From NCBI GenBank assembly GCA_018402425.1, contig JAGYIZ010000010.1, forward strand, positions 1-59,304: a DNA stretch of 59,304 nucleotides, read 5' to 3'. The notes beneath the pieces are model-generated. The model had not been told where the DNA came from. It did no database searches and saw only the letters and a list, made by a program, of their open reading frames with translations. Each line of letters begins with the position of its first letter. The stretch's first letter is position 1. The stretch is from Candidatus Atribacteria bacterium (lineage in GTDB: Bacteria > Atribacterota > Phoenicimicrobiia > Phoenicimicrobiales > Stramentimicrobiaceae). This document shows positions 2,597 to 55,055 of this stretch, piece by piece. The position numbers and the translations under genes are program-made.

Positions 2597-3973
2597 AGTC
2601 TTCTCCAACGCAAGATGAGCCTGAAATGAGTTCCTAAAAGTCAACACATTTGACCGAATAGGGATAAGAGTCATAATAGCTATATGATGATGGTAATTAT
2701 GATGAATGACTCTAAATTAAATAGACTGGCTCAAATAAAAAACTTTTTAGCTGAAACTAAAGAAATAGAATTTAACAAGAAATCTAAAAAGGAGGCCTAT
2801 TGTTGGATCGAGCAGACTCTAAACAGGTTTCAATATGTTATTCTCTCTAAAAAAGAAAAAGGATTAATCAGGAGATATCTCATGAAGATAACCGGCTATT
2901 CCCGGTCCCAGCTTACCAGACAGATCAACTAATATCATAATACCGGGCAGGTAAGAATAAAAGGATATGATCGACCCAGATTCCAGAAGAAATACACTCA
3001 TCAAGATATTCAACTATTGGCACATACCGCACAGTTACATGATTCTCCCAACGGGGCTGCCTTAAAGAAGAATCTAGAACGTATGGTCAGGGAATACGGT
3101 AAAGAAGAATATCTCAATATTGCTAATATCTCGGTATCTCATATCTATAATTTGAAGAAGAAGGTCTCCTACCTGCGCAGTATCACCAGTTATCAGAAAA
3201 CCAATAAAGGCAAGGGCAAAGCCATAGGTCAAAGGTGTAAACCCCAACCTGAAGGAAGACCAGGCTATCTAAGAGTAGATACCGCACACCAGGGGGACCA
3301 GGAAAGACGAAAAGGAGTCTATCATATCAATACGGTAGATGAAATAACTCAATGGGAAGTGATAGGGGCAACAGAGAAGATTTCCGAAGAATATCTTCTT
3401 CCCTTGCTGGAGAAAATCATAGTCAGTTATCCTTTCCGGATAGTTAATTTCCATAGTGACAATGGTTCAGAATACATCAACCAGCAGGTGGTAGAGATGC
3501 TAAACAAACTCTTAATCAAGCTGACTAAAGGAAGACCCAGACACACCAATGATAATGCCCTAATAGAGAGCAAAAACGGCTGGGTAGTCAGGAAATGGTT
3601 AGGCTATAGCCATATCTCTCAAGAACATGCTCCCAGGGTTAATGAGTTTTACTTCGGCTGTTTTCAGGAATATTTGAATTTTCATCGTCCCTGTGCCTTT
3701 CCTAGTGAAGTAATAGATCACAAGGGAAAAATTAAAAAGAAATACCGGTACCAGGACTATCAGACTCCCTATGAGAAATTAAAAAGTATTGCTGATGTGG
3801 GTAAATATCTAAAAGATGGTATTACCCTGGAAATGTTGGATAAAATAGCAAAAAGATACACCGATAATGAGATGGCAGAGAAAGTTCAGCTTGCAAGAGA
3901 TAAATTATTTGATAAAATAGTAGCAGCATGACTCTTGATTTCAGGCTCATATTTGGATTAGAAAAGACTCAAT
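2597..3973 (+). mobile_element. Insertion sequence with imperfect terminal inverted repeats
   Basis: A single-transposase element bounded by inverted repeats. A perfect 13-base core, ATGAGCCTGAAAT, lies at 2615-2627 and its complement at 3938-3950. The similarity continues outward imperfectly for about 30 bases (AGTCTT... at the left, the complement ending near 3970 at the right). I could not define a target-site duplication. The outer limits are therefore approximate. The transposase inside carries an in-frame stop, so this copy is probably not autonomous. Confidence 0.75.
2684..3931 (+). pseudogene. DDE integrase-core transposase, interrupted by an in-frame stop
   Basis: Two open segments in the same reading frame, 2684-2932 and 2933-3931, are separated only by a TAA at 2930-2932 (context QIN-stop-YHNTGQ; a CAA to TAA change would explain it). 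The first segment ends in a helix-turn-helix-like stretch (MKITGYSRSQLTRQI). The second has the rve integrase core: the catalytic triad is visible as D in YLRVDTAH, D in FHSDNGSE and E in ALIESKNG. C-terminal FHRPCAFPSEV is typical of such transposases. The length without the stop would be about 415 residues. An internal start might still give a truncated product lacking the DNA-binding part, but I regard the gene as inactive. Confidence 0.85.
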
Positions 3974-5811: not shown

Positions 5812-5840
5812 TTGACTAAAAAGAACCTTACGATTATAAT
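5812..5840 (+). promoter_or_regulatory. Sigma-70 promoter of the T-box leader
   Basis: TTGACT (5812-5817), a 17-base spacer, then TATAAT (5835-5840). It lies about 20 bases before the T-box stem I and faces the TRAP genes. Transcription should begin near 5847. Confidence 0.8.
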
Positions 5841-5861
5841 CATATAAATTAATATTGAAAA

Positions 5862-6133
5862 ATGATGAATGGGTTAAGTAGCAGTATGGCAATATTTTTC
5901 AGAGAGCCGCAGTTGGTGAGATGTGGCATAATGTTATATTGCAAAATGGTCCCAGGAGTTTCAGCCTGAAAGGAACTACTGAGTAAGTACTGACGGGTTT
6001 CCTCCGTGAAAAAGGAAAGAGTATCGGTATATAGATAATTAATGCCCGTACTTTACAGAGTGGAACTGATTGGTTCCAACCAGAGTGGCAACACGGAATG
6101 ACCTTTCGTCTCTAAGAGATGAAAGGTTTTTTG
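5862..6133 (+). promoter_or_regulatory. T-box leader 1, probable tRNA-Trp specificity
   Basis: A full T-box riboswitch. Stem I has the conserved CAGAGAG (about 5900-5906) and the GGTGAGA distal element. TGGG (5870-5873) can pair with CCCA (5951-5954), and GCAATAT with ATATTGC encloses the specifier loop. The loop strand reads AAAATGGT; by position relative to the closing helix the specifier is TGG (5947-5949, Trp), although ATG one base upstream cannot be excluded. The T-box element is GAGTGGCAACACGG near 6083-6096. Its TGGC bulge would pair with a tRNA ending GCCA, which fits bacterial tRNA-Trp (discriminator G) and not tRNA-Met. The terminator is a hairpin at 6101-6128 followed by a T run. 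Confidence 0.85.
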
Positions 6134-6159
6134 TTTATATAGAATTAATATACCGGTAT

Positions 6160-6282
6160 TCTAATAAGAGGGGTCAAATTTATAACAGCAGAAAATAGAA
6201 AATAATTTGATCCAATAAGGGTGGCACCGCGAAGTAAGCTCTTCGTCCCTGAATTAAAAGTAAGGGAATGAAGAGCTTTTTC
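6160..6282 (+). promoter_or_regulatory. T-box module 2 without its own stem I
   Basis: A second antiterminator/terminator unit directly after the first. It has the textbook T-box sequence AAGGGTGGCACCGCG at 6217-6231 and a terminator hairpin at 6236-6277 ending in a T run. Before it stands only one 10-bp hairpin (GGGTCAAATT 6171-6180 with AATTTGATCC 6204-6213), resembling a stem III; I find no stem I or specifier loop. The TGGC bulge is the same as in module 1, so both could read the same tRNA acceptor end. The gene it controls starts 125 bases further on. Confidence 0.8.
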
Positions 6283-6406
6283 TTTTTTATAAGACTGAAA
6301 AAATATAAAAATAATGGGAAGGAGGAGTGCATAAAAATAGATTGCGATATGAATCTAAAAAAGTAAGTAAAATTCATTTAAAATAAATAACAATGGAGGG
6401 TTTATA

Positions 6407-7375
6407 ATGGATAAAAAAATGATTATTATCATAATTTTATTACTGATCAGTAGTGTTCTTACTGTCTTACCAGTTTCGGCAAATCAGGTACAATTATCGA
6501 TTACTACCGGACCAATGGGTGGAGGGTTTTATCCTATGGGGGGTGGAATTGCAGAATACCTTTCTAAGACTATTCCGGATCTTTTTATTACAGCCACATC
6601 ATCAGGCGGTGTTGATGAAAATCTGAATCGGCTGGATAAGGGAGAAGCAGATATAGGGTTGGTAAGTACCGGTGATGCCTATGTAGCATTTCAGGGAGAA
6701 GATCCTTATGATCATCCATATGATAATATGAGAGGAATGGGTATTCTCTTTGGTAATTGGGTAGAACCTTATGCTTTACAGAAAAACCAGATTGAAACCT
6801 ATCTCGACGTAAAGGGAAAAACGGTATGTGCAGGCTCTCCGGGTGGTTCCATGCATAAAATATTCTTTGAAATTTGTGAAATTCATGGGATAAATCCAGA
6901 AGAAGACTTTAACAAGACTATATATCTACCGGCTGATGCAGCTCTTCAGGCAATTAAAATGGGACAGGCTGATGTAGTAATGGAGATTGCCGCTATTCCA
7001 ACAGCAGGATTAACAGAGCTCTCACTTACTCATGATTTTCAAATATTAAAGTTTGCTCCCGGCCTTCGTGATAAATTAGTTGAAGAAAATCCCAAATATC
7101 TGGCTATGACTATTCCTGCAGGCACTTATAAAGGTATCGATGAAGACATTGAAACAGTAGGAATGGGGGCTATGTGGGCATGTCAAAAAGATCTTTCTGA
7201 GGAATTGGTATATGAGATGATAAAAACACTTTATAGTGAAGCAGGTCTGAAACATATGGCTTCGGTTCATCCGGCTGCTAAAAGTATTTCACTGGAAAAT
7301 GCTGCCAAATGGACACCGATTCCTCTACATCCTGGTGCAATCAGATTCTTTCAGGAACAAGGACTGATAGAGTAA
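6407..7375 (+). CDS. TAXI-type TRAP transporter, periplasmic solute-binding protein
   Basis: 322 residues with a signal peptide (basic start, hydrophobic core, cleavage near PVSANQ). The mature part has the TAXI signature region TTGPMGGGFYPMGGGIAEYL and the conserved block KGKTVCAGSPGGSMHKIFFEI. The family delivers substrates, often glutamate-like or other organic acids, to a fused TRAP permease in the inner membrane; the permease is the next gene. GGAGGG precedes the ATG. The gene is the first of the T-box regulated transcript, so I infer that its ligand is tied to tryptophan or aromatic amino-acid supply. The fold alone does not reveal the ligand. Confidence 0.92.
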   Translation: MDKKMIIIIILLLISSVLTVLPVSANQVQLSITTGPMGGGFYPMGGGIAEYLSKTIPDLFITATSSGGVDENLNRLDKGEADIGLVSTGDAYVAFQGEDPYDHPYDNMRGMGILFGNWVEPYALQKNQIETYLDVKGKTVCAGSPGGSMHKIFFEICEIHGINPEEDFNKTIYLPADAALQAIKMGQADVVMEIAAIPTAGLTELSLTHDFQILKFAPGLRDKLVEENPKYLAMTIPAGTYKGIDEDIETVGMGAMWACQKDLSEELVYEMIKTLYSEAGLKHMASVHPAAKSISLENAAKWTPIPLHPGAIRFFQEQGLIE

Positions 7376-7406
7376 TTAAAATTTATAGTATTTTAGAGAT
7401 AGTTAT

Positions 7407-7438
7407 GACCGGCTGACATTAATATTGGCCAGCCGGTC
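7407..7438 (+). other. Intercistronic hairpin between binding protein and permease
   Basis: GACCGGCTG (7407-7415) pairs with CAGCCGGTC (7430-7438), 9 bp, with no T run after it. Such a hairpin between a binding-protein gene and its permease usually stabilises the upstream message or lowers downstream expression. That role is inference. Confidence 0.7.
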
Positions 7439-7461
7439 TGAATTAAACAGGAAGGGAAAGA

Positions 7462-9441
7462 ATGAAAAAAGGAGTAAGCCCATATATTTCAAATACAGAT
7501 GATAATAGACAAGAAGAAATAGTAGTACCTGAATTATCTAAAAAAGAACGGACTTTTAATCAATTTGAGAAGATAATTATTCAACTGGGAATGGCTTTAT
7601 TGTCTTTTCTAATCCTTTATTGGGCATTCGATGTTACTTTTGATATGATGACCAAACGTGCACTTTATTTGATGCTTGTTTTAGTTTTGTGTACGATAAG
7701 CTATCCTTTTTCCCGAGGGATAAATAAACATACTTCGCTATTAATAGATTATATAATTATTTTATTGATTTTATTAAGTTCATTCTATATTATGTATCAG
7801 CCATATACTCGTTTTGCCCGTTTAAGTTCCCTCAATTCGCTGGATATCTTTCTAGGTATAGTAATGATAATTATAGGATTGGATATCGGTAGACGGGTTA
7901 TCGGTTGGTCGCTGACTTTGACAGCAGGTTTCATGCTGTTATATGCTCTTTTTGGTAATATGATCCCAGGGATGTTCGGGCATGCTGGATTTTCGATGCA
8001 AACAATTGTCAGCCAGGTATTTTGTGGGATGGAAGGTTTTTATGGTATGGTAAGCAGGATTATGATTCAATATGTGATTCCTTTCATTCTGTTCGGTGCT
8101 TTTTTGGAGGAAACAGGAGCTGGCGAGTTTTTTATCAAACTGGCTTTTTCCTTAACCGGAAAGACAGTAGGTGGACCGGCAAAAGCAGCTATTATAGGTA
8201 GTGCTTTATTGGGTTCTGTATCCGGTAGTGCAATTGCCAATGTATCCTCAACCGGAGTCTTTACCATTCCTATGATGAAACGCATAGGCTACCCGCCTCA
8301 TATTGCCGGAGCCATAGAAGCTTCGGCTTCCACAGGGGGACAAATTATGCCGCCTGTTATGGGGGCGGTCGCCTTTATTATGGTGGAATTAACGCAAATA
8401 CCTTATTTGACAATAATATCTGTAGCCGCTTTACCAATTATATTACATTACATTACATTGTATGTATTTGTTCATATTGAAGCCAGGAAACAGCAGGTTG
8501 GAATAATTAATTCAGATAACATCGAAAAATGGACTGAGTTGCTAAAAAGAGGATGGTATTATTTCTTTTCTTTGCTTTTTATTATTATTGTAATGGTGAT
8601 GGGTTTTTCTCCCAATCTTGCGGCTCTAAGCGGAATTTTTGTTCTTGTTATAATTCACATGATTCAAAAACGCCATTTGGATTTATCCTTTGTTTATCGA
8701 GCTCTGGTATTGGGTGGTAAACACTCACTTTATATTGGAAGTATTGTTCCCTGTATTGGTATTATTTTAGCAATGGTCGGTTTAAGCGGACTTGGTTTAA
8801 AAATATCCTGGTTTCTATCAGGTCTCAGCAATGAAAGCACCTTTTTAGCAATTTTACTTGTAGGTCTTATTTCTACTATACTTGGTATGGGATTACCAAG
8901 CAGTGCTGCCTATATTATTGTTGCCATTACAGCCGGACCCAGCTTAATTGAGCTAGGATTCCCTGTACTTATTGCTCATATGATTATGATTTGGTTTAGC
9001 ATTAATTCCGAGATAACTCCTCCGGTTGGTTTAGCCTCTATAGTTGGAGCAGGCATTGCCGGAGCCGATCCTATGAAGACCATGTTTACTGCTTTTAAAT
9101 TTTCTAAAGGACTTTACATTTTACCTTTTTTGTTTTATTATCGCCCGGCCATTCTATTACAGGGAAACATCTTGCTAATTATTGAAACTACCATTATGGT
9201 ATTATGTGGATTAATTGCTTTTGCTGTTTTTTGGGAAAGGTACGTATTTGGACGTTTGTCTTTATTTAATAATATCTTAATATTATTTTCTGCCATTGTC
9301 CTTTTTTTACCCTACCGATTGTTTAATTATATGGGATTAGTTATTTTCATTATCATATTAATTAAACAGAATAGAGTCCAAATTGATGATCAAAAAATTG
9401 ATTTAAAACAATTTCAGATAGCTGAAAATACAGAAAAATAA
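7462..9441 (+). CDS. TRAP transporter permease, fused 4TM-12TM (DctQ-DctM type)
   Basis: 659 residues, almost entirely hydrophobic, the length expected when the small DctQ-like and large DctM-like subunits are one polypeptide as in TAXI systems. The first four helices (about residues 35-160) match the small subunit. The rest carries the DctM pattern with conserved GSVSGSAIANVSSTGVFTIP, STGGQIMPPVMGAVAF and LGMGLPSSAAYII segments lining the transport path. It sits in the inner membrane and uses an ion gradient together with the binding protein encoded upstream. GGAAGGGAAAG precedes the ATG. It is followed after 14 bases by the molybdopterin gene, so the three form one operon. Confidence 0.92.
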   Translation: MKKGVSPYISNTDDNRQEEIVVPELSKKERTFNQFEKIIIQLGMALLSFLILYWAFDVTFDMMTKRALYLMLVLVLCTISYPFSRGINKHTSLLIDYIIILLILLSSFYIMYQPYTRFARLSSLNSLDIFLGIVMIIIGLDIGRRVIGWSLTLTAGFMLLYALFGNMIPGMFGHAGFSMQTIVSQVFCGMEGFYGMVSRIMIQYVIPFILFGAFLEETGAGEFFIKLAFSLTGKTVGGPAKAAIIGSALLGSVSGSAIANVSSTGVFTIPMMKRIGYPPHIAGAIEASASTGGQIMPPVMGAVAFIMVELTQIPYLTIISVAALPIILHYITLYVFVHIEARKQQVGIINSDNIEKWTELLKRGWYYFFSLLFIIIVMVMGFSPNLAALSGIFVLVIIHMIQKRHLDLSFVYRALVLGGKHSLYIGSIVPCIGIILAMVGLSGLGLKISWFLSGLSNESTFLAILLVGLISTILGMGLPSSAAYIIVAITAGPSLIELGFPVLIAHMIMIWFSINSEITPPVGLASIVGAGIAGADPMKTMFTAFKFSKGLYILPFLFYYRPAILLQGNILLIIETTIMVLCGLIAFAVFWERYVFGRLSLFNNILILFSAIVLFLPYRLFNYMGLVIFIIILIKQNRVQIDDQKIDLKQFQIAENTEK

Positions 9442-15886: not shown

Positions 15887-15914
15887 AACTTAAATAAAAA
15901 TTGAATAAAGTTGT

Positions 15915-16171
15915 CTTGCAATGATGGTTCTTGTTTGATTAAAAAGGAAAACGGTGCAAAGCCGTTGCTGTTGTCGCATCTGTAACCAGCGTAACCCTGT
16001 ATCATTCACTGCCCAGCAGGTGGGAAGGATGATTCAAATAAAGGGCTGGGAGCCAGAAGACTTGCCATGATTGTCTGCTTGGGGTACCTCCGACATAGAG
16101 GGGAAGCAGGGATAAACCATTTTTGGTAAGTTCTACGAGCTGCCTTCTTGAAAGAGGAGGCAGCTTTTTTG
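15915..16171 (+). promoter_or_regulatory. Cobalamin riboswitch with intrinsic terminator
   Basis: The aptamer shows the class hallmarks: GATGGTTC at 15923-15930, the core GAAAACGGTGCAAAGCCGTTGC with its B12-box (about 15957-15968), and AGCCAGAAGACTTGCC near 16051-16066. An outer helix can form between CAATGATGG and CCATGATTG. A terminator hairpin AGCTGCCT/AGGCAGCT at 16138-16164 with a T run closes the leader. The arrangement indicates that bound corrinoid stops transcription of the receptor gene that starts at 16256. I see no equivalent aptamer before the ABC genes or the cob genes at 39 kb. Confidence 0.92.
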
Positions 16172-16255
16172 TTTTATAAAAATAAAAGGAGGATGATGTC
16201 TAAAAGGGACAATTTCGTGAAAATTATTAATTTTTAAAGGAGAGAAAAATAAAAA

Positions 16256-18148
16256 ATGCCAAGAAAATTCAAATTTGTTTTTATGTGTCTGCTAATTTGT
16301 ATTAGTATTTTTTCCATTTGTATGCAAGTCTTTGCTACCAAGCAACAGGAGCCATTATTTATTATGGAAGAGATTGTGGTTATTGCCTCAAAATATCCAG
16401 AAGATTTGCTGGATTCAATTGCTAGTGTAGAAGTAATTTCAAGAGAAGAAATTGCTATTTCCCAATCAGAAAACCTGGCCGGAATTATTAGAAACATAGC
16501 TGGTCTTGAGATAATGGACTATGGTTCTCAGGGAGATGTTAAGGCAATCAGTATTCGCGGTTCTTCACCGGAACAAGTCCTGATTATGATAGACGGTCAA
16601 GTGGTCAATGATCCGCAAACTGGCAAAATTGACCTGGGTTTGATTCCGTCAGATATGATTAAAAAGATTGAAGTATATCGGGGACCGGCTCCTGCCCTCT
16701 ATGGAGCCAATGCCTTAGGTGGCGTAATTAATATTATTACTAAAAGTGGGGAAGAGGAGAAAAAAGGAACAGCAGGGGTTAATTACGGGAGCTATTCCAC
16801 TCAAAAATACCAGGCTTCTTACCAGAATAAAAGCGATGATATGGGTTATTTTTTTACCGGTGGATATTATAAAACAGAAGGGGATCGAGAGAACAGCCAA
16901 TTAGATAAAGTTTCTTTAATGGGGAAAATTTCCAAAGAGGTTGACCAACAGACAGATTTGTATTTAGCCATTCGTTACCATGATTATCAAAGGGGATTAC
17001 CTGGTTCTCTTGATTACCCCACTCCCAATGCCCAGCAAGATGACCGGAATTTTAATTTGAATTTTAAATGGCAGAAAAGAGAAGAGGATAAAGACATCAA
17101 CATAATGGCCTGGTATGATTTTCACCGTCTTTATTATGACAATCCGGATGAATGGGGACACGCCGGGGCCAGTATTCATAAAACCCATACCATCGGGTTA
17201 TCTTTTGACAACACCCATTATAACTTCAGTTTTAATAATGAAAATATAGAAAGTGATCATACTTTTACCTGGGGTGGAGAGATTAAACAGCATTCGCTAG
17301 ATAGTACAGATATTGGAACTCAACAGGATTTAAATGGCGCAGTCTTTATTCAAGATGTCTGGCTACCGGCAGAGGAAAGGGATTTATCAATTACTGCAGG
17401 CTTGCGTTATGATTATCACCAAATCTTTGGGGGACAATTTAATCCCCGTATAGGAATTTCTTATCGTTTACAGGATGAGCTGAGCATTCATGCCTCTGTA
17501 GGCCGAGCTTATCGGGCACCTACTTATGATGATCTTTATTGGCCCGAAGATGGTTATGTAGGCGGTAACCCCAATTTATTACCGGAAACTGCCTGGGCTT
17601 ATGAGGTTGGATTGCATTTTATCAATGAAGAAGGAGACACTCAGGCTGAGCTAAATATCTTCCGAAAAAATGTCAATGATTTAATTAATTGGGCTACTGA
17701 TTCTGAAGGGGTCTGGCGTCCTTCTAATATCGGGTCAGCACGTGTTGGTGGAGCAGAGGTAATCCTAAAGAAAGAAATTGATGAACATTTTTTGGGGAAT
17801 ATTAATTATACCTATCTGAATGCCAGAGATCTTAATACAGACACACAATTAAAAGCAAAACATAAATATGGTTTAGGTTTGACCTATTTTAATCAGGTTG
17901 GCGATCATGAAGATGATTTTTCTATAGGTTTAGATGGTTATATTGTAACAGGTCGACCGGATAAACTGGAAAATTATTATTTATTTGATGGAAATATTAC
18001 CAGAGATGTGACTGTGGATGTGGAAACGAATAAAAAAGTTCAACTGAATTTTAGCATCAAAAATATACTAAATCAAAAGACTGAATTAGTCAGTGGTTAT
18101 CCTATTCAGGGAAGGACATTTATGGTGGGGATTCGCACCGATTTTTGA
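16256..18148 (+). CDS. btuB: TonB-dependent outer-membrane receptor, probable corrinoid receptor
   Basis: 630 residues: signal peptide (to about VFATK), a TonB-box-like MEEIVVIASK, a plug domain with DYGSQGDVKAISIRG and IEVYRGPAPALYGANALGG, then a 22-strand-type barrel (many alternating aromatic strands; GLRYDYHQIFGGQFNPRIGIS, SIHASVGRAYRAPTYDDLYW) ending in the terminal Phe of outer-membrane proteins. The length matches BtuB-like receptors. Control by the cobalamin riboswitch directly upstream is the strongest evidence that the ligand is a corrinoid; the protein fold alone would also fit siderophores. A strong terminator follows. tonB-exbB-exbD come next and should supply the energy. Confidence 0.9.
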   Translation: MPRKFKFVFMCLLICISIFSICMQVFATKQQEPLFIMEEIVVIASKYPEDLLDSIASVEVISREEIAISQSENLAGIIRNIAGLEIMDYGSQGDVKAISIRGSSPEQVLIMIDGQVVNDPQTGKIDLGLIPSDMIKKIEVYRGPAPALYGANALGGVINIITKSGEEEKKGTAGVNYGSYSTQKYQASYQNKSDDMGYFFTGGYYKTEGDRENSQLDKVSLMGKISKEVDQQTDLYLAIRYHDYQRGLPGSLDYPTPNAQQDDRNFNLNFKWQKREEDKDINIMAWYDFHRLYYDNPDEWGHAGASIHKTHTIGLSFDNTHYNFSFNNENIESDHTFTWGGEIKQHSLDSTDIGTQQDLNGAVFIQDVWLPAEERDLSITAGLRYDYHQIFGGQFNPRIGISYRLQDELSIHASVGRAYRAPTYDDLYWPEDGYVGGNPNLLPETAWAYEVGLHFINEEGDTQAELNIFRKNVNDLINWATDSEGVWRPSNIGSARVGGAEVILKKEIDEHFLGNINYTYLNARDLNTDTQLKAKHKYGLGLTYFNQVGDHEDDFSIGLDGYIVTGRPDKLENYYLFDGNITRDVTVDVETNKKVQLNFSIKNILNQKTELVSGYPIQGRTFMVGIRTDF

Positions 18149-18157
18149 TTAAATAAT

Positions 18158-18194
18158 AAAAGACAGAGACCAATCATATTGTCTCTGTCTTTTA
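18158..18194 (+). terminator. Intrinsic terminator after the TonB-dependent receptor
   Basis: AAAGACAGAGAC pairs with GTCTCTGTCTTT across a 10-base loop and ends in TTTTATTT. The dispersed repeat copy 2 begins in its T run. Confidence 0.88.
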
Positions 18195-18461
18195 TTTAAC
18201 CATAAAAAACCACCTTCTTTGAAAGTGGTAATGGTTAAATAAATTGGTTTTACCATAAAGATAAGGATGGGCTAACTGAAATATTTTTTACCTGAACTCC
18301 TAAATAAGGCAATATTAAATTTTGCTTGGATGGACTTGGTAAAAATAGTATAAAAGATTGCTAAGAGATCAAGAGAAAAGACTATAGAAAAACTGGATAA
18401 TAAAAGTTAAGCCCCTTTTAGAGGCTTAAAGCCACTCAGCTACGCGGGTGCGATATTTACT
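18195..18461 (+). repeat. Dispersed intergenic repeat, copy 2 (long form)
   Basis: Contains the blocks of the short form plus an insert of about 110 bases (18310-18425) that resembles the insert in copy 3 (AGATCAAGAGAAAAGA against AGACAAGAGAAAAGA). It ends with GCGGGTGCGATATTTACT only 22 bases before the tonB start, so the tonB promoter must lie within the repeat or transcription enters from upstream. TTGGAT-17-TATAAA at about 18329-18357 is a possible promoter inside the insert. Confidence 0.8.
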
Positions 18462-18483
18462 GGAATATTGAGAAGTGAAACAA

Positions 18484-19353
18484 ATGAAAAATAAATTCAT
18501 TTATATTACTCTGTTAGTTTCAATAGTTTTTCATCTTTGGGCGATTCATTTTCTGGCTGCAAGAATTGACATTAGGAATAATCAGTCCGAAGAAGATCAT
18601 ATTATCTGTTCTAGTAAGATGACATTTTTTTCTTCTTCAAACAGTAGTGTAGCGGAAGCGGAAAATGACTTGCAAGAAAATTTTCTTAAACCCCAAAAGG
18701 AAATATTGGATACAATTTCCGATATTTCAAATAATAAGGAAATTCTGGAAATGCAAGATGAGCCAGAATCTATTTCTCAAGACAATAATCATTTGGAAGA
18801 GGTAGGAAAAAAGATGATTAGCCAGATTGAAAAGGAAAATCCAGCGATAAAGGAGGAAATAAAAGAAAAGAATTTAATTAAAGAGAAAGAGACTAAGCAG
18901 AGCAAAAAAGAAGATAAGTTAATCCAGGAGAAAAAAGAAGGGTTATTAGAAGATAAAAAAGGTTTAAACGCAATTGAACATGATTTAGATAATAAGAATA
19001 TTGATAAAAAGTGCAATGAGAGTAAATCATTGCCGGAAAAACAGCCTCTTGATTTAACCCAGGCTAACTTTTCAGATAATAATATTCTTCCACCCAAAAT
19101 TATTTCTATTTTTAAGCCAAGATATCCGGAAAATCTAAGAAAGAGGGAAATTGAGGGAAAAGTTCAGTTGAAGGTATTAATCAATAAAGAAGGCAAAACT
19201 ATTCAAGTAGAAATGCACACTTCTTCTGGTTATAAGGATTTTGATCAAGAAGCGGTGCGATCTATATATAAATGGCAATTTGAGCCTGCAAAATTAGGAA
19301 ATATCGATAGGGACAGTTGGGTATTGATTCCGGTAGTATTTCGATTGAAATGA
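18484..19353 (+). CDS. tonB: TonB-like energy transducer
   Basis: About 289 residues. An N-terminal membrane anchor (FIYITLLVSIVFHLWAIHFL) is followed by a long Glu/Lys-rich linker (residues ~50-200) that would span the periplasm. The C-terminal TonB domain starts at PPKIISIFKPRYPENLRKR and includes GKVQLKVLINKEGK and DQEAVRSIYKWQFEPA. The linker is unusually rich in Glu and Lys, not the Pro-rich type of E. coli. I prefer the ATG at 18484 over the GTG at 18475, because GAGAAGTGA then lies at ribosome-binding distance. exbB and exbD follow directly. Confidence 0.88.
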   Translation: MKNKFIYITLLVSIVFHLWAIHFLAARIDIRNNQSEEDHIICSSKMTFFSSSNSSVAEAENDLQENFLKPQKEILDTISDISNNKEILEMQDEPESISQDNNHLEEVGKKMISQIEKENPAIKEEIKEKNLIKEKETKQSKKEDKLIQEKKEGLLEDKKGLNAIEHDLDNKNIDKKCNESKSLPEKQPLDLTQANFSDNNILPPKIISIFKPRYPENLRKREIEGKVQLKVLINKEGKTIQVEMHTSSGYKDFDQEAVRSIYKWQFEPAKLGNIDRDSWVLIPVVFRLK

Positions 19354-19374
19354 GAATAGAAAGAGGTGTTCTAT

Positions 19375-20001
19375 ATGAATGAACTTATTCAGCAAGGAGG
19401 AGTTATTATGTATCCTCTGTTAATTTTTTCAATTATTGCTCTTGCTATTATGCTGGAACGTTTTTTGTATTTTAGCAGGATAAGGCGGGAGATCCCGGAA
19501 AGAATGATGCAACAACTCAGGGAAGATTTAAGAACAGGCAATACAGAAAATGCCCTGACTTTGTTTGAATATTCACGAAACCCTATTGATCGGGTTTTAA
19601 CGAAAGGCATTAAAAGTTGGGCAAAGGGATGCCAGGAAATGGAGAGAGAGATGGAAGAGATGAAGATGCTCGAGTTCCCTCGAATGGAAAGGCGTTTAGC
19701 CATGCTCCATTTTATTGGCAAGATGAGTCCATCTTTGGGTTTATTGGGAACAGTAATCGGCATGATTAAGATATTTCATTTTTTATCTATTAATGTTGAA
19801 TCCCAACAGTTAGCCCAGGGTATTTCCGAAGCTTTGACAACAACAGCTTTTGGATTAATAATCTCGATTCCCACTTTGGCAGCTTACTATTATTTTAGGA
19901 ATAAATTGGAATATATAATTAATCATAGTGAAAAAAGAGAAATAGAATTAATTAACTATGCTCAAAAGCTAGGTGATGGATATGCGCAAATACAAGATTA
20001 A
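19375..20001 (+). CDS. exbB: ExbB/TolQ/MotA-family proton channel subunit
   Basis: About 208 residues with three membrane segments: one near the N terminus (VIMYPLLIFSIIALAIMLERF) and two near 130-185 (HFIGKMSPSLGLLGTVIGMI; ALTTTAFGLIISIPTLAAYY), the ExbB pattern. Together with ExbD it forms the proton-driven motor that energises TonB. The ATG at 19375 is preceded by AGAGGTG at proper spacing; the GTG at 19366 overlaps that site. The gene starts 21 bases after tonB and overlaps exbD. Confidence 0.92.
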   Translation: MNELIQQGGVIMYPLLIFSIIALAIMLERFLYFSRIRREIPERMMQQLREDLRTGNTENALTLFEYSRNPIDRVLTKGIKSWAKGCQEMEREMEEMKMLEFPRMERRLAMLHFIGKMSPSLGLLGTVIGMIKIFHFLSINVESQQLAQGISEALTTTAFGLIISIPTLAAYYYFRNKLEYIINHSEKREIELINYAQKLGDGYAQIQD

Positions 20002-20392
20002 AAAAGCAGATTTGGAAATAAATCTGGCTCCCTTAATTGATGTTATTTTTCTATTATTGATATTTTTTATGGTTGCTTCTACATTGGACGATAGTCAGAC
20101 CAGGGCAACTATTAGGCTACCTGAGGTTAGTTTAGAATCAGAAACGGAAAAATTTCCGGTTATTTTGTATATGGATAAAACCGGACAGATTTTTTTGGAT
20201 AATAAATTGATATCCTGGGATGAAATTTATAATTATTTTTATGAACAGGACAAAGCTATATTTGACAAAGGAATTGAGGTTTATGCTGATAAGGAAGTTT
20301 GTTTTGAATATATTGCCGCAGTTATGGAACTAGCCGGTGATTTAAATATTGATAAAGTTAATTTTATTCTTAAATCCAAAAATATTTTTTAA
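19982..20392 (+). CDS. exbD: ExbD/TolR-family motor subunit
   Basis: About 136 residues. One N-terminal membrane helix (LAPLIDVIFLLLIFFMVAST) contains the conserved Asp of ExbD (LID), the proton-carrying residue of the family. A periplasmic domain follows. The ATG at 19982 has AGGTGATGG upstream; in-frame GTG 19973 and ATG 19976 are alternatives. It overlaps the end of exbB by 20 bases, which indicates translational coupling. Confidence 0.9.
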   Translation: MRKYKIKKADLEINLAPLIDVIFLLLIFFMVASTLDDSQTRATIRLPEVSLESETEKFPVILYMDKTGQIFLDNKLISWDEIYNYFYEQDKAIFDKGIEVYADKEVCFEYIAAVMELAGDLNIDKVNFILKSKNIF

Positions 20393-23655: not shown

Positions 23656-23737
23656 AATATCCGATTTTAAGATTATTAGTTTTTCTTTGGTTTATCAGTT
23701 TTTATTTTATTAAATATTACAAGGCAAGGTGAGAAAA

Positions 23738-24859
23738 ATGTTCAGCAAAAAAAAGATTTTTCTTTTTTGGTTTATTATTTTTTTATTTATATTTTTTCTG
23801 CTAACCGGGTGTTCACTATTTTCCAATGGTTCACTCTATGTAACCAGTAACCCCAATGGAGCACAAGTCTATCTCGATGGTTCTTATTCGGGTAAAGTAA
23901 CTCCTTCTCTACTTTTAAATCTTTCTCCCGGTTCTTATTTGCTTAAAGTGATTTTGGAAGACCGATCTATGAGCTCGGAAGAGTCGATTACTATATTTCA
24001 AAACCAGCTAACATCAGTGCACATTGAATTATTTCCTCAAAAAGATTATCGTGCTTTATGCATAGGGGTTGATGAATACCTTGAACCGGGGATTACCGAT
24101 CTAAGAGCACCTTCTTATGATGTGGATCGAATAAGACAAGTCTTTGAAAAATCTTATTTTGATAATAATCAATATTCTTTTACAAGTATAGATACCCTTA
24201 TCGGCGCACAGGCTACACGCAAAAATATACTGCAGTCAATTAATTCATCTTTTTTAGAGGCTGAGAGCAGTGATATATCTTATTTTTATTTTTCGGGACA
24301 CGGCTATAATGACGGAGAGACCATTACCATATTGCCTTATGATGCCCTGGCCGAGAATGCCTCAAAAGATATAACAGTTGATGAATTAGCTCTGGCTCTT
24401 GGGAATATTCCCGGGACAAAAGTAGTAATACTTGATTCTTGTCATTCTGGTGGATTTATTGGTAAGGAGCTATATTCTCGGGAAATATTAAGCACTGATA
24501 ATCTAAGACAATTTAATGAAAGCGTACTTGAATCTTTCGCCATGCATGATTCTATTTCAACAAAAGGCAATCTAGCTTCAGGGGAATTTAAGGTAATTGT
24601 TTCTGCCTCTGGAGATCAAAAATGCTGGGAAACACTTTACCATCCTATTGACGGTAATCCTTACGGGTATTTTTCTGCTTCTCTTTGTGAAGGCTGTGGT
24701 TATAATAATTTTATTGCTCCTTATCCGGCTGATTATAATATAGATGATAAAATTACTGTTAGCGAAATATACCAATATATTAAGGCTTCATTGATCAATT
24801 TAAACCAGGATGCTCAAGTCTATCCTGATAATTCTTCTTTTACATTCATAGAATACTAA
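23738..24859 (+). CDS. Lipoprotein metacaspase (PEGA domain plus C14 caspase-like protease)
   Basis: About 373 residues. The signal ends in a lipobox (FLLTGC), so the protein should be lipid-anchored outside the inner membrane. Residues ~30-95 form a PEGA domain (LYVTSNPNGAQVYLDGSYSG, TPSLLLNLSPGSYLLKV). A caspase/peptidase C14 domain follows (RALCIGVDEYLEPGITDLRA), with the catalytic His in FYFSGHGYND and the catalytic Cys in VILDSCHSGGF. The family cleaves after basic residues in most studied cases; the target here is unknown. ATG 23738 is favoured because AAGGTGAG lies just before it; GTG 23729 is within that site. It is monocistronic between mntP and the promoter at 24.9 kb. Confidence 0.85.
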   Translation: MFSKKKIFLFWFIIFLFIFFLLTGCSLFSNGSLYVTSNPNGAQVYLDGSYSGKVTPSLLLNLSPGSYLLKVILEDRSMSSEESITIFQNQLTSVHIELFPQKDYRALCIGVDEYLEPGITDLRAPSYDVDRIRQVFEKSYFDNNQYSFTSIDTLIGAQATRKNILQSINSSFLEAESSDISYFYFSGHGYNDGETITILPYDALAENASKDITVDELALALGNIPGTKVVILDSCHSGGFIGKELYSREILSTDNLRQFNESVLESFAMHDSISTKGNLASGEFKVIVSASGDQKCWETLYHPIDGNPYGYFSASLCEGCGYNNFIAPYPADYNIDDKITVSEIYQYIKASLINLNQDAQVYPDNSSFTFIEY

Positions 24860-49190: not shown

Positions 49191-49341
49191 GTTACTGTCT
49201 TTCTCCTTATGGGTGAGCAAAATGATTTGCCTTACCTTACTGTGGCAGTTTTTTGAATCATCAATTCCTAAATTTGGTGGTTAATTTAGATTTAAAGATA
49301 AATGGAAAAAAGAATTAATTTTGGGAGGGAAACAGATAAGT

Positions 49342-50259
49342 ATGAATGATGAAAAGACCACTGTATTGGAACCTCGGCCCCTGCCGGATTTTGTCGAGAC
49401 GGAATATATTAAGGATATTACTTTTAGAGCATTATCATACATTAAAGCTGGTTTCCCGGTTCATTTCAGAGGACCATCAGGGACCGGAAAGACCACATTG
49501 GCATTGCATTTAGCCAACAAGATAGCTCAGCCTGTGGTGATCATCCATGGAGATGAAGAATTTACCAGTTCTGATTTAGTAGGGAAAGAACACGGGTATC
49601 AATACAAAAAAGTGCTTGACCGATTTGTATGGAGGGTTACTAAATATGAAGAGAATATGACTAAGCAATGGGTTGATAATCGCCTCACCCTTGCCTGTAA
49701 AAACGGGTTTATTTTAATTTATGATGAATTCACCCGTTCACGTCCGGAAGCCAACAATGTCCTACTTTCTGTTTTACAGGAAAGGATGATGAATTTACCG
49801 GTTAGCCAGGGGGATGGACCTTATTTGAAAGTTCATCCAAAATTCAAAGCAATTTTTACCAGTAATCCGGAAGAATATGCTGGTGTGCACAGAAGTCAGG
49901 ATGCTTTACGTGACAGAATGGTCACCATGGACTTGGATCATTTTGATTATGAAACTGAATTATCTATAACCAGGGCTAAATCCAAAGTGTCAGAAATAAA
50001 CAGTGCTATCATTGTCAAAATTGTCAGAGGATTGAGAGAATCAGGCAAATGTGAGTTTGCCCCCACCGTAAGGGGCTGTATCATGATAGCCAAGAGTATC
50101 AAAGTCAGGAAAATAAAACCCAGTAAATTTAATCAGGATTTCCTGATTATCTGTCAGGATATATTGGCTTCTGAGACAAGTCGGGTTGGTTCAAAGACCA
50201 ATCAGGACAGGATTAAAGAAGAAATAAAGAAATTAGTTAACCAGTATGGCTTGCCGTAA
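49342..50259 (+). CDS. gvpN: GvpN, MoxR-type AAA ATPase for gas-vesicle assembly
   Basis: About 305 residues. The family start VLEPRPLPDFVETEYIKDIT is followed by Walker A FRGPSGTGKTTLALHL (~residue 50), the GvpN-specific IHGDEEFTSSDLVG, Walker B GFILIYDEFTRSRPEANNVL and sensor FTSNPEEYAGVHRSQDAL with the Arg finger region. It is an essential-type assembly ATPase in most gas-vesicle clusters. ATG 49342 gives the normal start; the frame is open from TTG 49321 but the GGGAGG there is the ribosome site. It is intact, unlike the three genes before it. Confidence 0.95.
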   Translation: MNDEKTTVLEPRPLPDFVETEYIKDITFRALSYIKAGFPVHFRGPSGTGKTTLALHLANKIAQPVVIIHGDEEFTSSDLVGKEHGYQYKKVLDRFVWRVTKYEENMTKQWVDNRLTLACKNGFILIYDEFTRSRPEANNVLLSVLQERMMNLPVSQGDGPYLKVHPKFKAIFTSNPEEYAGVHRSQDALRDRMVTMDLDHFDYETELSITRAKSKVSEINSAIIVKIVRGLRESGKCEFAPTVRGCIMIAKSIKVRKIKPSKFNQDFLIICQDILASETSRVGSKTNQDRIKEEIKKLVNQYGLP

Positions 50260-50316
50260 ACTTGATATATCAAACATTATTTGCTAAAAACAATTTTCAA
50301 GAGGAAGTGTGAGAAA

Positions 50317-50649
50317 ATGGAAAAGACGCATGGATTAAAGGGCCTTAATTCAATCAAGACCATGAAAAATGTGAAAAAACGTTCAATAGATATGGCCAAA
50401 AGCTCTTCTTTTTTAGAATTATATCTTTTAGAAAAGGAAAGAGAAAGACTTGTAGCTGAAAGACGTATCATTGAGCAGAAATTAAATAGCTTAAATAAGC
50501 GCTTGAAAGAGATAGCGGAAGAAGTAAAGGAAATACAAACGGTTAAAGGTTATGCCAAGAAAACATTAGAGAACAAAAAAAGTTCTGCTCCTATTAATCC
50601 CAACAAAAAAGAACAAAAAGCCATAAACAAAGTTCAATATGATTATTAG
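50317..50649 (+). CDS. Small coiled-coil gas-vesicle protein, GvpV-like
   Basis: 110 residues from ATG 50317 (GAGGAAG nine bases upstream). The N terminus MEKTHGLKGLNSIKTMKNVK is basic. A long coiled coil follows (FLELYLLEKERERLVAERRI, IEQKLNSLNKRLKEIAEEVK), and the tail is Lys/Asn-rich. The layout of a basic head and an ELYLLEKERERL coil resembles cyanobacterial GvpV; similarity is by pattern only. It lies between gvpN and a gvpA/J paralog, so a gas-vesicle role is likely. Confidence 0.6.
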   Translation: MEKTHGLKGLNSIKTMKNVKKRSIDMAKSSSFLELYLLEKERERLVAERRIIEQKLNSLNKRLKEIAEEVKEIQTVKGYAKKTLENKKSSAPINPNKKEQKAINKVQYDY

Positions 50650-50731
50650 ATTAAATAGGCGGTTTCATTGTTTTCTTTATGGCATATTTCGATGTTAACA
50701 AATTATAAAAGAAAGGACTAAAATAAAAAAT

Positions 50732-51022
50732 ATGGCTGAACAGCTTACCCATTCAACCAGTAGCAGTAATTTAGTAGACATATTGGAAAGAGTCCTTGAT
50801 AAAGGGGTTGTTATTGCCGGGGATATTAAAATACAAATTGCTGATATTGACTTACTAACGATTAAGATAAGGCTTTTAATTGCCTCAGTTGATAAAGCCA
50901 GGGAAATGGGCATCGACTGGTGGGAACATGATAGTTATCTTTCTTCCCGGGCAGAAGATAGGGCAATAGATAGAGATAAAGAAACAGGAGAGAATAATAA
51001 GCCTGGAACTGTAGATAATTAA
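50732..51022 (+). CDS. GvpA-family paralog (GvpJ/M-type minor shell protein)
   Basis: 96 residues. Residues ~12-58 are the GvpA core (LVDILERVLDKGVVIAGDIK, IADIDLLTIKIRLLIASVDK), and a charged tail follows. Differences from GvpA (GDIKIQIADIDLL in place of [12 protein letters not shown]) are those of GvpJ/GvpM, minor proteins thought to nucleate the tips. This copy is intact while the main gvpA is frameshifted. AAAGGA lies further upstream than ideal. Confidence 0.85.
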   Translation: MAEQLTHSTSSSNLVDILERVLDKGVVIAGDIKIQIADIDLLTIKIRLLIASVDKAREMGIDWWEHDSYLSSRAEDRAIDRDKETGENNKPGTVDN

Positions 51023-51146
51023 TAATGTATCAACAAATAGATATTAACAATTTATTAAAAATCTTCTGCGACAATAATAAATAGATGGATAATTAAGAAA
51101 GAAGCTTTTCTGGAGATATATGCAGGTGTGAAAAGAGGTGAAAATA

Positions 51147-51677
51147 ATGGGAAAAGAGAAAAGAAAAAAAGAAGATGATCTGGAATTCGATTTGGGAATT
51201 GGTAAGTTATCGATGGGAGGATTGTTTAAAGGAATCGAAAAACTGATTGACCTTTCAAAGGAAATAGACAAAGCTGGTGGAAAGGTTGAAAAAGAGGGAG
51301 AAATTGATTTAAGCCATCTGAAAAAAGGGATGAAGGGTGTTTATGGCTTTTCGGTAAAAACCGCCACTGGTGGTAAGCCGGTTGTTGAAACATTCGGTAA
51401 TATTAAGAAGACGCCCAAAGGGCCCACTGTTGAGGAAGAAAGAGAGCCGATCACGGATGTCTTTGATGAGAAGGATGAAATAGAAATATATGCAGAAATG
51501 CCTGGAATTGATAAAAAGAATATCCAAATCGATTTAAAAGAAGACATCCTGGATATTTCCGTAAAATCAGGTCTTCGAAAGTATCGGAAGGAATTATTAT
51601 TACCGGTTAAGGTTAAATCTGAGAACCTGACCTGGGATTACAAGAATGGGATGTTGGAAATAAAAATCAAGAAATGA
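51147..51677 (+). CDS. gvpH: GvpH-like small heat-shock (Hsp20) protein
   Basis: 176 residues from ATG 51147 (AGAGGTG upstream; GTG 51138 is part of that site). The N-terminal half has FDLGIGKLSMGGLFKGIEKL, typical of GvpH. The C-terminal half is an alpha-crystallin domain (EPITDVFDEKDEIEIYAEMP, GIDKKNIQIDLKEDILDISV, NGMLEIKIKK). In haloarchaea GvpH is a chaperone that binds GvpL and GvpM-type proteins. It is followed after 35 bases by the Cdc48-type gene. Confidence 0.88.
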   Translation: MGKEKRKKEDDLEFDLGIGKLSMGGLFKGIEKLIDLSKEIDKAGGKVEKEGEIDLSHLKKGMKGVYGFSVKTATGGKPVVETFGNIKKTPKGPTVEEEREPITDVFDEKDEIEIYAEMPGIDKKNIQIDLKEDILDISVKSGLRKYRKELLLPVKVKSENLTWDYKNGMLEIKIKK

Positions 51678-51712
51678 ACAGGACTTGCAACCTGCATAGC
51701 AGGTGAGGAGTA

Positions 51713-53875
51713 ATGGGTGTGGAAGAGAACAAGAAACCAAAAATTCTAACTTTAAAGGTAAAAGAAGCCTTAACAAAAGATGTTGGCAGGGCTATTGTGC
51801 GGATTGACCCGGTTGATATGAAGTATTTGGGAATTGAGGTTGGTGAAATTGTTGAAGTTGAAGGAAAAAAGAAAACCCCGGCCAAAGTCATGCCATGTTA
51901 CAGGGAAGATAGAGGCCAAAAGATCATTCAAATGGATGGCGTTTTAAGGGAGAATAGTCAAATTGGTATCGATGAAAAAGTGAAAGTATCCCAGGTTGAA
52001 TATCAATTTGCTCAAAAAATAACACTTTCCCCGGTTAATATTTCCTATTTAATGAAAAAGGAAAAGGACAGAGAATATATTGGTTCTTTGATAGAGGGAC
52101 TGCCGGTATGTTCTGGTAATAAGGTAAGAGCTAAGTTATTTGCTAATAAAAATTTCGATTTTGTAGTAGAACATACCATACCAGATGGTATTGTTGTAAT
52201 CGATCCTACGACCATTATTCAGGTAAAATCAAAAAAAACACAGGACAAAAAATCATCCATCTCCTATGAGGACATTGGGGGTTTGAGAAACCAGATCCAA
52301 AGAATAAGGGAAATGATTGAACTCCCTTTAAAATATCCGGAAGTGTTTGAAAAACTGGGAATACAGGCACCCAAAGGTGTTTTCTTGTTCGGCCCACCCG
52401 GTACCGGAAAGACTTTGATTGCCAGAGCAGTTGCCCATGAAACTGATGCTTATTTTACCCATATTTCAGGCCCTGAAATCATGGGCAAGTTCTATGGGGA
52501 ATCAGAAGCCCGCCTGAGAAGTATCTTTACCGAAGCACAAAATCATACTCCGGCGATTATTTTTATTGACGAGATAGATGCCATTGCATCCAAAAGAGAG
52601 GATATGGGAAGTGAAAAACAGGTGGAAAAACGAGTTGTTGCCCAACTATTATCATTACTTGATGGATTAGAATCAAGAGGGCAGGTTATTGTCATTGCTG
52701 CGACCAATATTCCCAATAGTATAGATCCCGCTTTAAGAAGGCCTGGTCGATTCGATCGGGAAATATCAATTGATATTCCTGACCGGGATGGCAGGTTAGA
52801 AATATTTCAGATTCATACCGGAGGAATGCCTTTATCGAAAAATATAGATTTAAAAGAATTAGCCAATATAACTCATGGCTTTGTTGGTGCCGATATCGAG
52901 GCTCTAAGCCGAGAAGCAGCCATGGTCTCTTTGAGGAAGATTATGCCCGAGATTGATTTTGAGATGGCTAGTATCCCCTATAAGGATTTGATGAAGCTGG
53001 AAATAACCAGGGATCACTTCTTGGAAGCCATGAAAGAGGTTAACCCCTCGACTTTAAGAGAGGTTTTTATTGAAGTTCCGGAGGTAAGATGGAGCGATAT
53101 AGGGGGGTTAGATGATATCAAAGAAGAACTAATTGAAGCAGTTATCTGGCCTATGAAGTACCTCGATATATTTAAAAATGCTGATATTAGTTCCCCTAAA
53201 GGCATCTTACTCTACGGTCCCCCGGGAACCGGCAAAACTTTACTGGGAAAAGCAGTTGCCAATGAGAGTGGTGCTAATTTTATTTCTATTAAATGCTCTC
53301 AACTGGTCAGCCGCTTTGTCGGTGAGTCAGAGAAGGAAGTAAGCAAAATATTTAAAAAGGCCAAACAATCTTCTCCCTGTGTCTTATTCCTGGATGAAGT
53401 TGATAGTATATTGCCAAAAAGGGTTTCCGGAACAGCAGACTCTCATGTTACCGAAAGGATAATCAGTCAATTTTTAATGGAAATGGATGGGATTGAGGTG
53501 CTTAGGGGTGTTGTAGTTTTGGCGGCCACGAACCGAATTGACCTGATTGATCCGGCTATATTAAGAAGAGGAAGATTTGACCTCATTTTTAAGTTACCCT
53601 TGCCTGATGAAAAGGCTCGGGAAGAAATCATCAAGATTCATACCAGAAATAAAGCACTTGACAGTCATATTGATTTGTCGTCATTGGCAAAAGAGGCCAA
53701 GAATATGGTTGGTTCTGACCTGGAATTTATCTGCAAAAAAGCCACCATGTTTGCAGTAAAAGACTATATTCAAAGTGAAACAGGGAAAGTGGGGAAGGGC
53801 AGAAAAGAATTTATGGTCATGAAAAAACATTTTGACAGGGCAATTGAATATATTCATAACCAGAACAGGAGGTAA
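51713..53875 (+). CDS. Cdc48/p97-type double AAA+ ATPase in the gas-vesicle operon
   Basis: 720 residues with the full archaeal-VAT/Cdc48 layout. Residues ~5-180 are the Cdc48 N domain ([20 protein letters not shown]). D1 has Walker [16 protein letters not shown], Walker [17 protein letters not shown] and [14 protein letters not shown]2 has [29 protein letters not shown] and [12 protein letters not shown]; both rings appear active. The family pulls folded proteins from complexes. GAGGAG precedes the ATG, and the next gvpF/L starts one base after the stop, so it is embedded in the operon. Its role is probably remodelling or removing vesicle proteins. Confidence 0.95.
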
Positions 53876-53876
53876 G

Positions 53877-55055
53877 ATGATTAAAATATTTGATAATATT
53901 AATCGATTCTTCAGTAACCTGGGGAATAGCAATAAGAAAGAAAATTTAGAAAGAAGCGAAATAGATAACCATGGGCAAGCCATCGAAAAAAGGTCAACCC
54001 TAAATGGGCAAAAAGCAAAATATATTTACGGCTTTATTCATAAAGGTATGACCAATAATGTAGAAAAAACAGATTTAGACAAACTGTTAAGTGATAAAGA
54101 AATATATTTGGTTTCTTATGGTGACATTTCTGTGGTGGTCTGTGATTTGGAAAAGTTTACCTTGACTCATTTGTCCAGAGAGAAAATTGCCAGATATCTA
54201 TTGAAGCATCAACAGGTTATTGAGAAAGTAATGCAGCAATATTCAATTATACCCATGAAATTAGGGACTTTTGCGGAAAATAGTGAAGACCTCAAAAAAC
54301 TAATACATTCTGGCTACAAATTGTTTCAAGAGATTTTCAGTCAAATAGATCATAAACACGAGATAGAATTGGCTGTTACCTGGAATGACCTTACGGTTAT
54401 TTTACAGGAAATCGGCCAAGAAAAAGAGATCAATGAATTTAAAAAAGAGCTATTGGGAGATAGGAAAAATTTTTCTTTAAATGACAAAATAGCAATAGGT
54501 AAAAGAGTGAAGCTATTATTGGATAAAAAAAGAAAGACTGTTTTAAATGAAATAAAAGATTACCTGGGACAAGATTTCTCTCATTTAAAGGAAAACATGG
54601 TTATGGATGATAAGATGGTTGGTAATATGAGTTTTCTAATCGATCAAAATAGGTCGGATAAATTTTATGAAATGGTTAATCAACTGAATAACCGGTTTAA
54701 AGAAAGATTGGATTTTAAATGCATTGGACCATTGCCTCCCTATAGCTTTTATACCCTGGAGATCAATAAGCTTGAGTTACTGGAAGTTAATTGGGCGCGA
54801 GAAAAATTGGGTTTAGAGAATAATGTAACTAAAACACAAATTAAGGAAGCCTACCGGCAAGCCGCCTCTTTAGTTCATCCTGATTCCAATCCACAGATAG
54901 AAGGGCTGGAGGAAAAGTTTAAAGAAGTGAAACAGGCTTATAAAATTCTACAGGAATATTGTCAAGCTGTTGAGCAGAATAGTCAAAAAGAAGTTAGTAA
55001 TTTTGAGTTTAATGAAGAAAAGGAACCATTAAAGTTAGTCAAGATAAAGGAATAG
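53877..55055 (+). CDS. GvpF/GvpL-family protein fused to a C-terminal DnaJ J-domain
   Basis: 392 residues from ATG 53877 (AGGAGG just upstream). Residues ~35-310 are a GvpF/L domain (KYIYGFIHKG; IIPMKLGTFAENSEDL; MSFLIDQNRSDKFYEMVNQL; IGPLPPYSFYTLEI). Residues ~315-375 form a J-domain: WAREKLGLENNVTKTQIKEA, with the essential HPD in SLVHPDSNPQ and KFKEVKQAYKIL after it. J-domains activate Hsp70 ATPase, so this protein could bring DnaK to vesicle proteins. It lies directly behind the Cdc48-type gene. Confidence 0.88.
   Translation: MIKIFDNINRFFSNLGNSNKKENLERSEIDNHGQAIEKRSTLNGQKAKYIYGFIHKGMTNNVEKTDLDKLLSDKEIYLVSYGDISVVVCDLEKFTLTHLSREKIARYLLKHQQVIEKVMQQYSIIPMKLGTFAENSEDLKKLIHSGYKLFQEIFSQIDHKHEIELAVTWNDLTVILQEIGQEKEINEFKKELLGDRKNFSLNDKIAIGKRVKLLLDKKRKTVLNEIKDYLGQDFSHLKENMVMDDKMVGNMSFLIDQNRSDKFYEMVNQLNNRFKERLDFKCIGPLPPYSFYTLEINKLELLEVNWAREKLGLENNVTKTQIKEAYRQAASLVHPDSNPQIEGLEEKFKEVKQAYKILQEYCQAVEQNSQKEVSNFEFNEEKEPLKLVKIKE

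Follow-up and report, generated by a model that had tools for sequence, protein, structure and literature searches.

Organization of the locus

The window analysed here is the whole 59,304-nucleotide stretch of contig JAGYIZ010000010.1 from a Candidatus Atribacteria bacterium, and the system in question is an operon in which a T-box leader precedes the genes of a TAXI-type tripartite ATP-independent periplasmic (TRAP) transporter. The host genome assembly is 2.13 Mb and 79% complete. The TAXI-family solute-binding protein scores 226.3 bits against TIGR02122 (cut-off 84.35), and the adjacent gene encodes a fused permease that scores 563.6 bits against TIGR02123 (cut-off 320.65). A molybdopterin oxidoreductase gene begins 14 nt past the permease stop codon, and the gene after it, of the LysE family, lies on the opposite strand. 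The coordinates are collected in Table 1. The initial annotation of this DNA described a consensus promoter, a full T-box leader, a second T-box module, TRAP genes and an oxidoreductase. All of these were confirmed (11/12 promoter positions; 105.4 bits to the T-box model; TIGR02122, TIGR02123 and PF00384), with the oxidoreductase lying outside the span 5812-9441 that had been given for the locus.

Table 1. Features of the TAXI operon and its leader, in window coordinates
Feature	Position	Strand	Evidence
Sigma-70-type promoter, TTGACT-17 nt-TATAAT	5812..5840	+	Consensus scan, 11/12 positions matched
Full T-box leader: Stem I, Stem II region, Stem III, antiterminator 1	5856..6116	+	Rfam RF00230
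Specifier codon UGG (Trp) in AAAAUGGUCCC	5947..5949	+	Rfam alignment register
Module 1 T-box bulge UGGC	6086..6089	+	Complement of tRNA-Trp GCCA end
Intrinsic terminator 1	6100..6133	+	13-pair stem and T run; minimum free energy -21.2 kcal/mol, z -5.0
Module 2 Stem III-like hairpin (GGGGUCAAAUU...AAUUUGAUCC)	6170..6213	+	Sequence; similar hairpin in aligned leaders
Antiterminator 2, UGGC bulge 6222-6225, without own Stem I	6218..6250	+	Partial RF00230 match
Intrinsic terminator 2	6237..6290	+	Minimum free energy -25.8 kcal/mol, z -3.8; covariation
TAXI-family TRAP solute-binding protein, 322 aa	6407..7375	+	TIGR02122, PF16868; PDB relatives 1us4, 8s4j
Fused TRAP permease (QM), 659 aa	7462..9441	+	TIGR02123
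Molybdopterin (DMSO-reductase family) oxidoreductase, 683 aa	9456..11507	+	PF00384/PF04879/PF01568

The leader is a partial tandem T-box

The first module matches the RF00230 covariance model over model positions 1-219 (105.4 bits, E 2.8e-22; gathering score 93 bits). The second module (6157-6250) starts a few tens of bases past terminator 1, and its match is restricted to model positions 147-216 (35.9 bits). It consists of an antiterminator and a terminator; a Stem I and a specifier of its own are both missing. Because module 2 is without Stem I, the leader is a partial tandem and not two complete T-boxes, each with Stem I and specifier. The "tandem T-box" of the initial annotation thus holds for the second antiterminator/terminator, which is present, but not for Stem I, of which there is one.

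Both modules contain a mutually exclusive antiterminator and intrinsic terminator, and both terminators fold far more stably than shuffled sequences, against which the z values of Table 1 were computed. Among 16 aligned leaders the pairs of antiterminator 2 are kept in 99.3% of cells and those of terminator 2 in 96%, with 28 compensatory cells in terminator 2 where shuffles give 11.2. When the helices of module 2 were slid, just 42-63% of the cells were kept. The -35 and -10 promoter hexamers stand at the equivalent place in the aligned leaders of relatives.

Specificity for tRNA-Trp

The T-box leader of the TAXI operon is almost certainly under tRNA-Trp control, judging from its calibrated specifier register, from the match of its UGGC bulges to tRNA-Trp with G73, and from the recurrence of this leader before trpB2 and trpE. 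In the Rfam alignment the specifier strand has eight bases, of which UGG takes up the fifth to seventh. This register was calibrated on 10 other T-box leaders of the same genome, where it gives codons that fit the downstream gene: CUC for leuS and ilvB-leu, UCC for the serS operon and serC-serA, GUC for valS, AUC for ileS and dctPQM-ilvD, AGA for carAB-argC and an arginine-type ABC operon, and UGG for trpB2. The names of leuS, ilvD, the TRAP genes and TrpB2 rest on NCBIfam, those of the others on reading of the protein sequences. The block AAAUGG is invariant across all 19 aligned leaders (one row being a duplicate). The T-box bulge of each module is UGGC, which pairs with GCCA; a tRNA-Trp gene was detected in 22 of 25 genomes, and all 20 folded tRNA-Trp copies from relatives have G73 and thus the GCCA end.

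An AUG is also present in the specifier loop (AAAAUGGU), one base upstream of UGG and overlapping it. If this were the specifier the leader would sense tRNA-Met, a reading that is very improbable and was rejected. The codon is UGG and not AUG in the register that fits the host's other T-boxes, all tRNA-Met genes found (three; elongator and initiator) end in ACCA, which mismatches the UGGC bulge, and the identical AAAUGG block occurs in the leaders of trpB2 and trpE. The initial annotation had read the specifier as TGG, specific for tRNA-Trp, and proposed a covariance-model search with specifier assignment as a check; that search placed UGG at 5947-5949 and no other codon, and the tRNA-Trp assignment stands.

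The Trp T-box regulon and tryptophan metabolism

A 13-base signature of module 1 was used to find the leader across 50 genomes of the phylum, and it matched in 16. Across the order the same tandem leader is found on trpB2 and trpE: in families f1 and f2 one of these two genes follows it in every case where the downstream gene is visible. Of three matches in family f5, which is more distant, two precede a trpE-like gene, and the second module was not recognised there. One trpE leader (G016, C18) seems broken after antiterminator 1, with a run of N and no second module, probably through an assembly fault. Ten genomes of the host's family gave 107 T-box matches; among those read by specifier or target there was no Trp T-box besides those of trpB2 and the TAXI operon.

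The leader of trpB2 carries a further element. In nine genomes, the host's own trpB2 leader included, the tandem T-box is separated from trpB2 by a short open reading frame, which in most cases has a Shine-Dalgarno-like sequence. It has a single Trp codon with a G+C hairpin directly after it (e.g. TGG-CCCCC-GCCA-GGGGG), and example peptides contain KRWPPPGG and SKSWSPLGG. This is possibly a third layer of tryptophan control. No such reading frame and hairpin are present upstream of the TAXI gene.

Neither trpA nor trpC was found in any of the ten family genomes, one of which is rated 100% complete, and trpB2 is present in seven. TrpB2 enzymes are able to couple indole with serine. Indolepyruvate:ferredoxin oxidoreductase is represented by an alpha subunit scoring above its cut-off in eight of the ten genomes, the host included. 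From this gene content the family members look like tryptophan auxotrophs able to salvage indole; lacking trpA and trpC, they would depend on an external supply of tryptophan, indole or an indole acid. Anthranilate, which the initial annotation had listed among the compounds to be tried for binding, is an unlikely route to tryptophan and was rejected as a precursor, since its conversion needs both trpC and trpA.

The TAXI pocket and its likely substrate

TAXI-TRAP systems are widespread but few of their substrates are established. The known ligands are mostly glutamate or glutamine, 2-oxoglutarate and 2-hydroxyglutarate; apart from these, o-phthalate is the substrate of an Azoarcus system (PMC12344293). 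Residues studied in the glutamate-binding protein VcGluP include Y45, S75, Q93, E125 and Y200 (PMC11574862). In the T-box-linked TAXI protein Y45, S75 and Q93 are replaced by F, V and S, so the residues taken as the mark of a glutamate-specific pocket are gone, and Y200 and G203 are replaced by E and A. The position equivalent to E125 differs between two alignments and is ambiguous. Y45, S75 and Q93 are retained in 21 of 29 related TAXI proteins that were aligned. Because the glutamate-pocket residues are lost here while most paralogues keep them, the protein likely has a changed substrate.

T-box control of TRAP uptake appears to be recurrent in the family. In the host genome an Ile T-box (specifier AUC, bulge UGGU) precedes dctP, dctQ, dctM and ilvD (G000:C48; 13757-18749), and another genus (g4; G003) likewise pairs an Ile T-box with a DctP gene, so that the arrangement is shared between genera up to dctP at least.

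Given the Trp control of the operon, the importer is proposed to take up tryptophan or an indole compound, with a probability of roughly 60%. The initial annotation had suggested tryptophan, a precursor or another aromatic compound; this proposal is plausible in view of the loss of trpA and trpC, the changed pocket and the Ile T-box on a TRAP operon. Its accompanying statement that aromatic compounds were not established for TAXI proteins does not hold for the o-phthalate system of Azoarcus, but no TAXI system for tryptophan or indole came up in our literature search, and a substrate of that kind would be new.

Proposed mechanism

Uncharged tRNA-Trp would be held at two points, the UGG specifier of Stem I pairing with the CCA anticodon and the UGGC bulge with the GCCA end; this would let antiterminator 1 form and open terminator 1. 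RNA polymerase would then reach antiterminator/terminator 2, which would likewise read GCCA, through the acceptor end alone. Module 2 may read the same tRNA, still bound to Stem I, or a second one. Full-length transcripts would then arise only after both gates had been passed, and two such gates in series could give low leak-through and a tighter shut-off when tryptophan is plentiful. The importer made under these conditions would bring in L-tryptophan, or indole-3-acetate or indolepyruvate convertible to tryptophan. The more specific version, in which one of these two indole acids is imported and tryptophan is then made by a reversed indolepyruvate:ferredoxin oxidoreductase and an aminotransferase, is offered tentatively and is rather improbable by itself.

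Weighing the alternatives

Several observations weigh against import of tryptophan or an indole compound. The host's own tRNA-Trp gene is missing from the incomplete assembly and is placed in the unassembled part. A transporter of the NSS family, some members of which carry tryptophan, is also encoded in the host genome. The TAXI leader shares no more than 68% identity with any other leader and groups in the leader tree with leaders of sister family f2 and not with the genome's own trpB2 leader (support 93/98, not decisive). There is no orthologous operon in the 50 genomes of the phylum, where identity reaches about 33% at best for the binding protein and about 32% for the oxidoreductase, nor was the whole operon found elsewhere by a single-protein genome scan. 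Among the at least 80 permeases listed by a genome scan with a permease alignment (31-45% identity), no related oxidoreductase or associated T-box lies nearby, and no second TAXI gene with a T-box is among the matches listed.

The placement of the leader with the sister family means that a recent fusion or acquisition, or a joining by recombination, is possible; that it arose by a recent duplication of the host's trpB2 leader was also considered but finds no support in the tree. From this comes the main rival explanation, chance capture, in which a trp-operon leader of the sister family was recombined onto an unrelated TRAP operon and Trp control is unrelated to the substrate. The grouping with f2, the lack of an orthologous operon and a weak integrase-core match upstream of the operon (3017-3931) are all in its favor. 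It is nevertheless unlikely. The promoter, both modules, both terminators, the specifier and the bulges are all intact in spite of the low identity to other leaders, which argues that the leader has been kept under constraint. The glutamate signature has also gone from the TAXI pocket, and with a further TRAP operon of the family behind a T-box, functional recruitment is plausible.

The importer could also aid tryptophan supply indirectly, by bringing in serine for TrpB2 or a carboxylate used by the oxidoreductase. The usual TAXI ligands, being glutamate, glutamine and the two C5 acids named above (PMC12344293), and the presence of a molybdopterin enzyme within the same operon would fit this explanation, but the serine genes of the family carry UCC T-boxes of their own and the equivalent of Q93, a key glutamate ligand, is Ser. 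It is judged somewhat less likely than chance capture. If the indole-acid route offered tentatively above is correct, T-box-controlled TRAP systems, for Trp and for Ile, would represent a general salvage of amino-acid skeletons by these auxotrophs.

Other T-boxes and loci

The leuS T-box of the host (CUC; G000:C74:13233-13528) contains a complete tRNA-Ala(GGC) gene with CCA within its Stem III, flanked by the Stem III arms GGGUAGAU and AUCUACU. The arrangement is kept in seven genomes of three genera, and no report of a tRNA-Ala embedded in a T-box Stem III was found in the literature. The tRNA-Ala is not the sensed tRNA, and its processing would separate Stem I from the antiterminator. Before ilvB-leu (G000:C48:3568-) a CUC T-box is followed by a sub-threshold Guanidine-I match (51 bits, gathering 63), resembling the T-box and Guanidine pairs described in Bacillota (PMC12452182).

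Elsewhere in the window, a Cobalamin riboswitch (81 bits) precedes genes for a TonB-dependent receptor, TonB, ExbB and ExbD (15908-20392), with a FecCD-type ABC system upstream; the cluster is that of diderm B12 uptake, and from these proteins the host phylum looks diderm. The window also holds a gas vesicle gene, gvpN, near a CDC48-family AAA ATPase (49321-55055), and a protein with PEGA and caspase-like (Peptidase_C14) domains (23729-24859).

Comparison with known systems

The oxidoreductase is an orphan and falls under every NCBIfam equivalog cut-off. Its nearest solved structure is acetylene hydratase (2e7z, E 5.8e-74), which with thiosulfate reductase (2vpw) is its nearest characterised relative; it shares with both a Cys at the metal ligand position, probably Cys134. 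Unlike acetylene hydratase, in which Asp13 is catalytic, it has Ser11 at the aligned position, and an acetylene hydratase function was rejected on this ground. The TAXI protein aligns over nearly its full length with VcGluP and Thermus 1us4 (E 1e-31 to 1e-37) but differs from them at the S75, Q93, Y200 and G203 positions and in its Trp T-box control.

Trp T-boxes, including tandem ones, are known on trp operons of Bacillota (PMC12452182), and Dehalococcoides has T-boxes on trpE and a trpB-like gene (PMC2494555). The leader described here shares with known Trp T-boxes the UGG specifier, the UGGN bulge, the antiterminator/terminator switch and the repeated modules, and with those of Dehalococcoides the trpE and trpB-like targets, which are seen here in the leaders of relatives. 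It differs from the tandem Trp T-boxes of Bacillota in that its module 2 is without Stem I and its target is a TAXI-TRAP operon. In one survey Bacillota were reported as the only group with tandem T-boxes on genes of trp biosynthesis (PMC12452182), whereas the host belongs to a small phylum outside it, represented by the 50 genomes compared. A review counts the mode of action of partial tandem T-boxes among the unknowns (PMC7583486), and a conserved partial-tandem Trp T-box outside Bacillota, with matching targets, provides material for solving it.

Trp T-boxes before uptake systems also have precedents, in the trpX ABC tryptophan transporter of Streptococcus suis (PMC9382623) and the NSS tryptophan transporters of the Bacillus cereus group (PMC2494555). 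The arrangement is the same here but the transporter is of the TAXI-type TRAP class. The literature search found no paper mentioning both "T-box" and "TRAP transporter", and as far as that search shows a TAXI-TRAP operon is a new T-box target. Because a T-box is a built-in label of amino-acid specificity, it offers for this operon a direct and testable prediction of the substrate.

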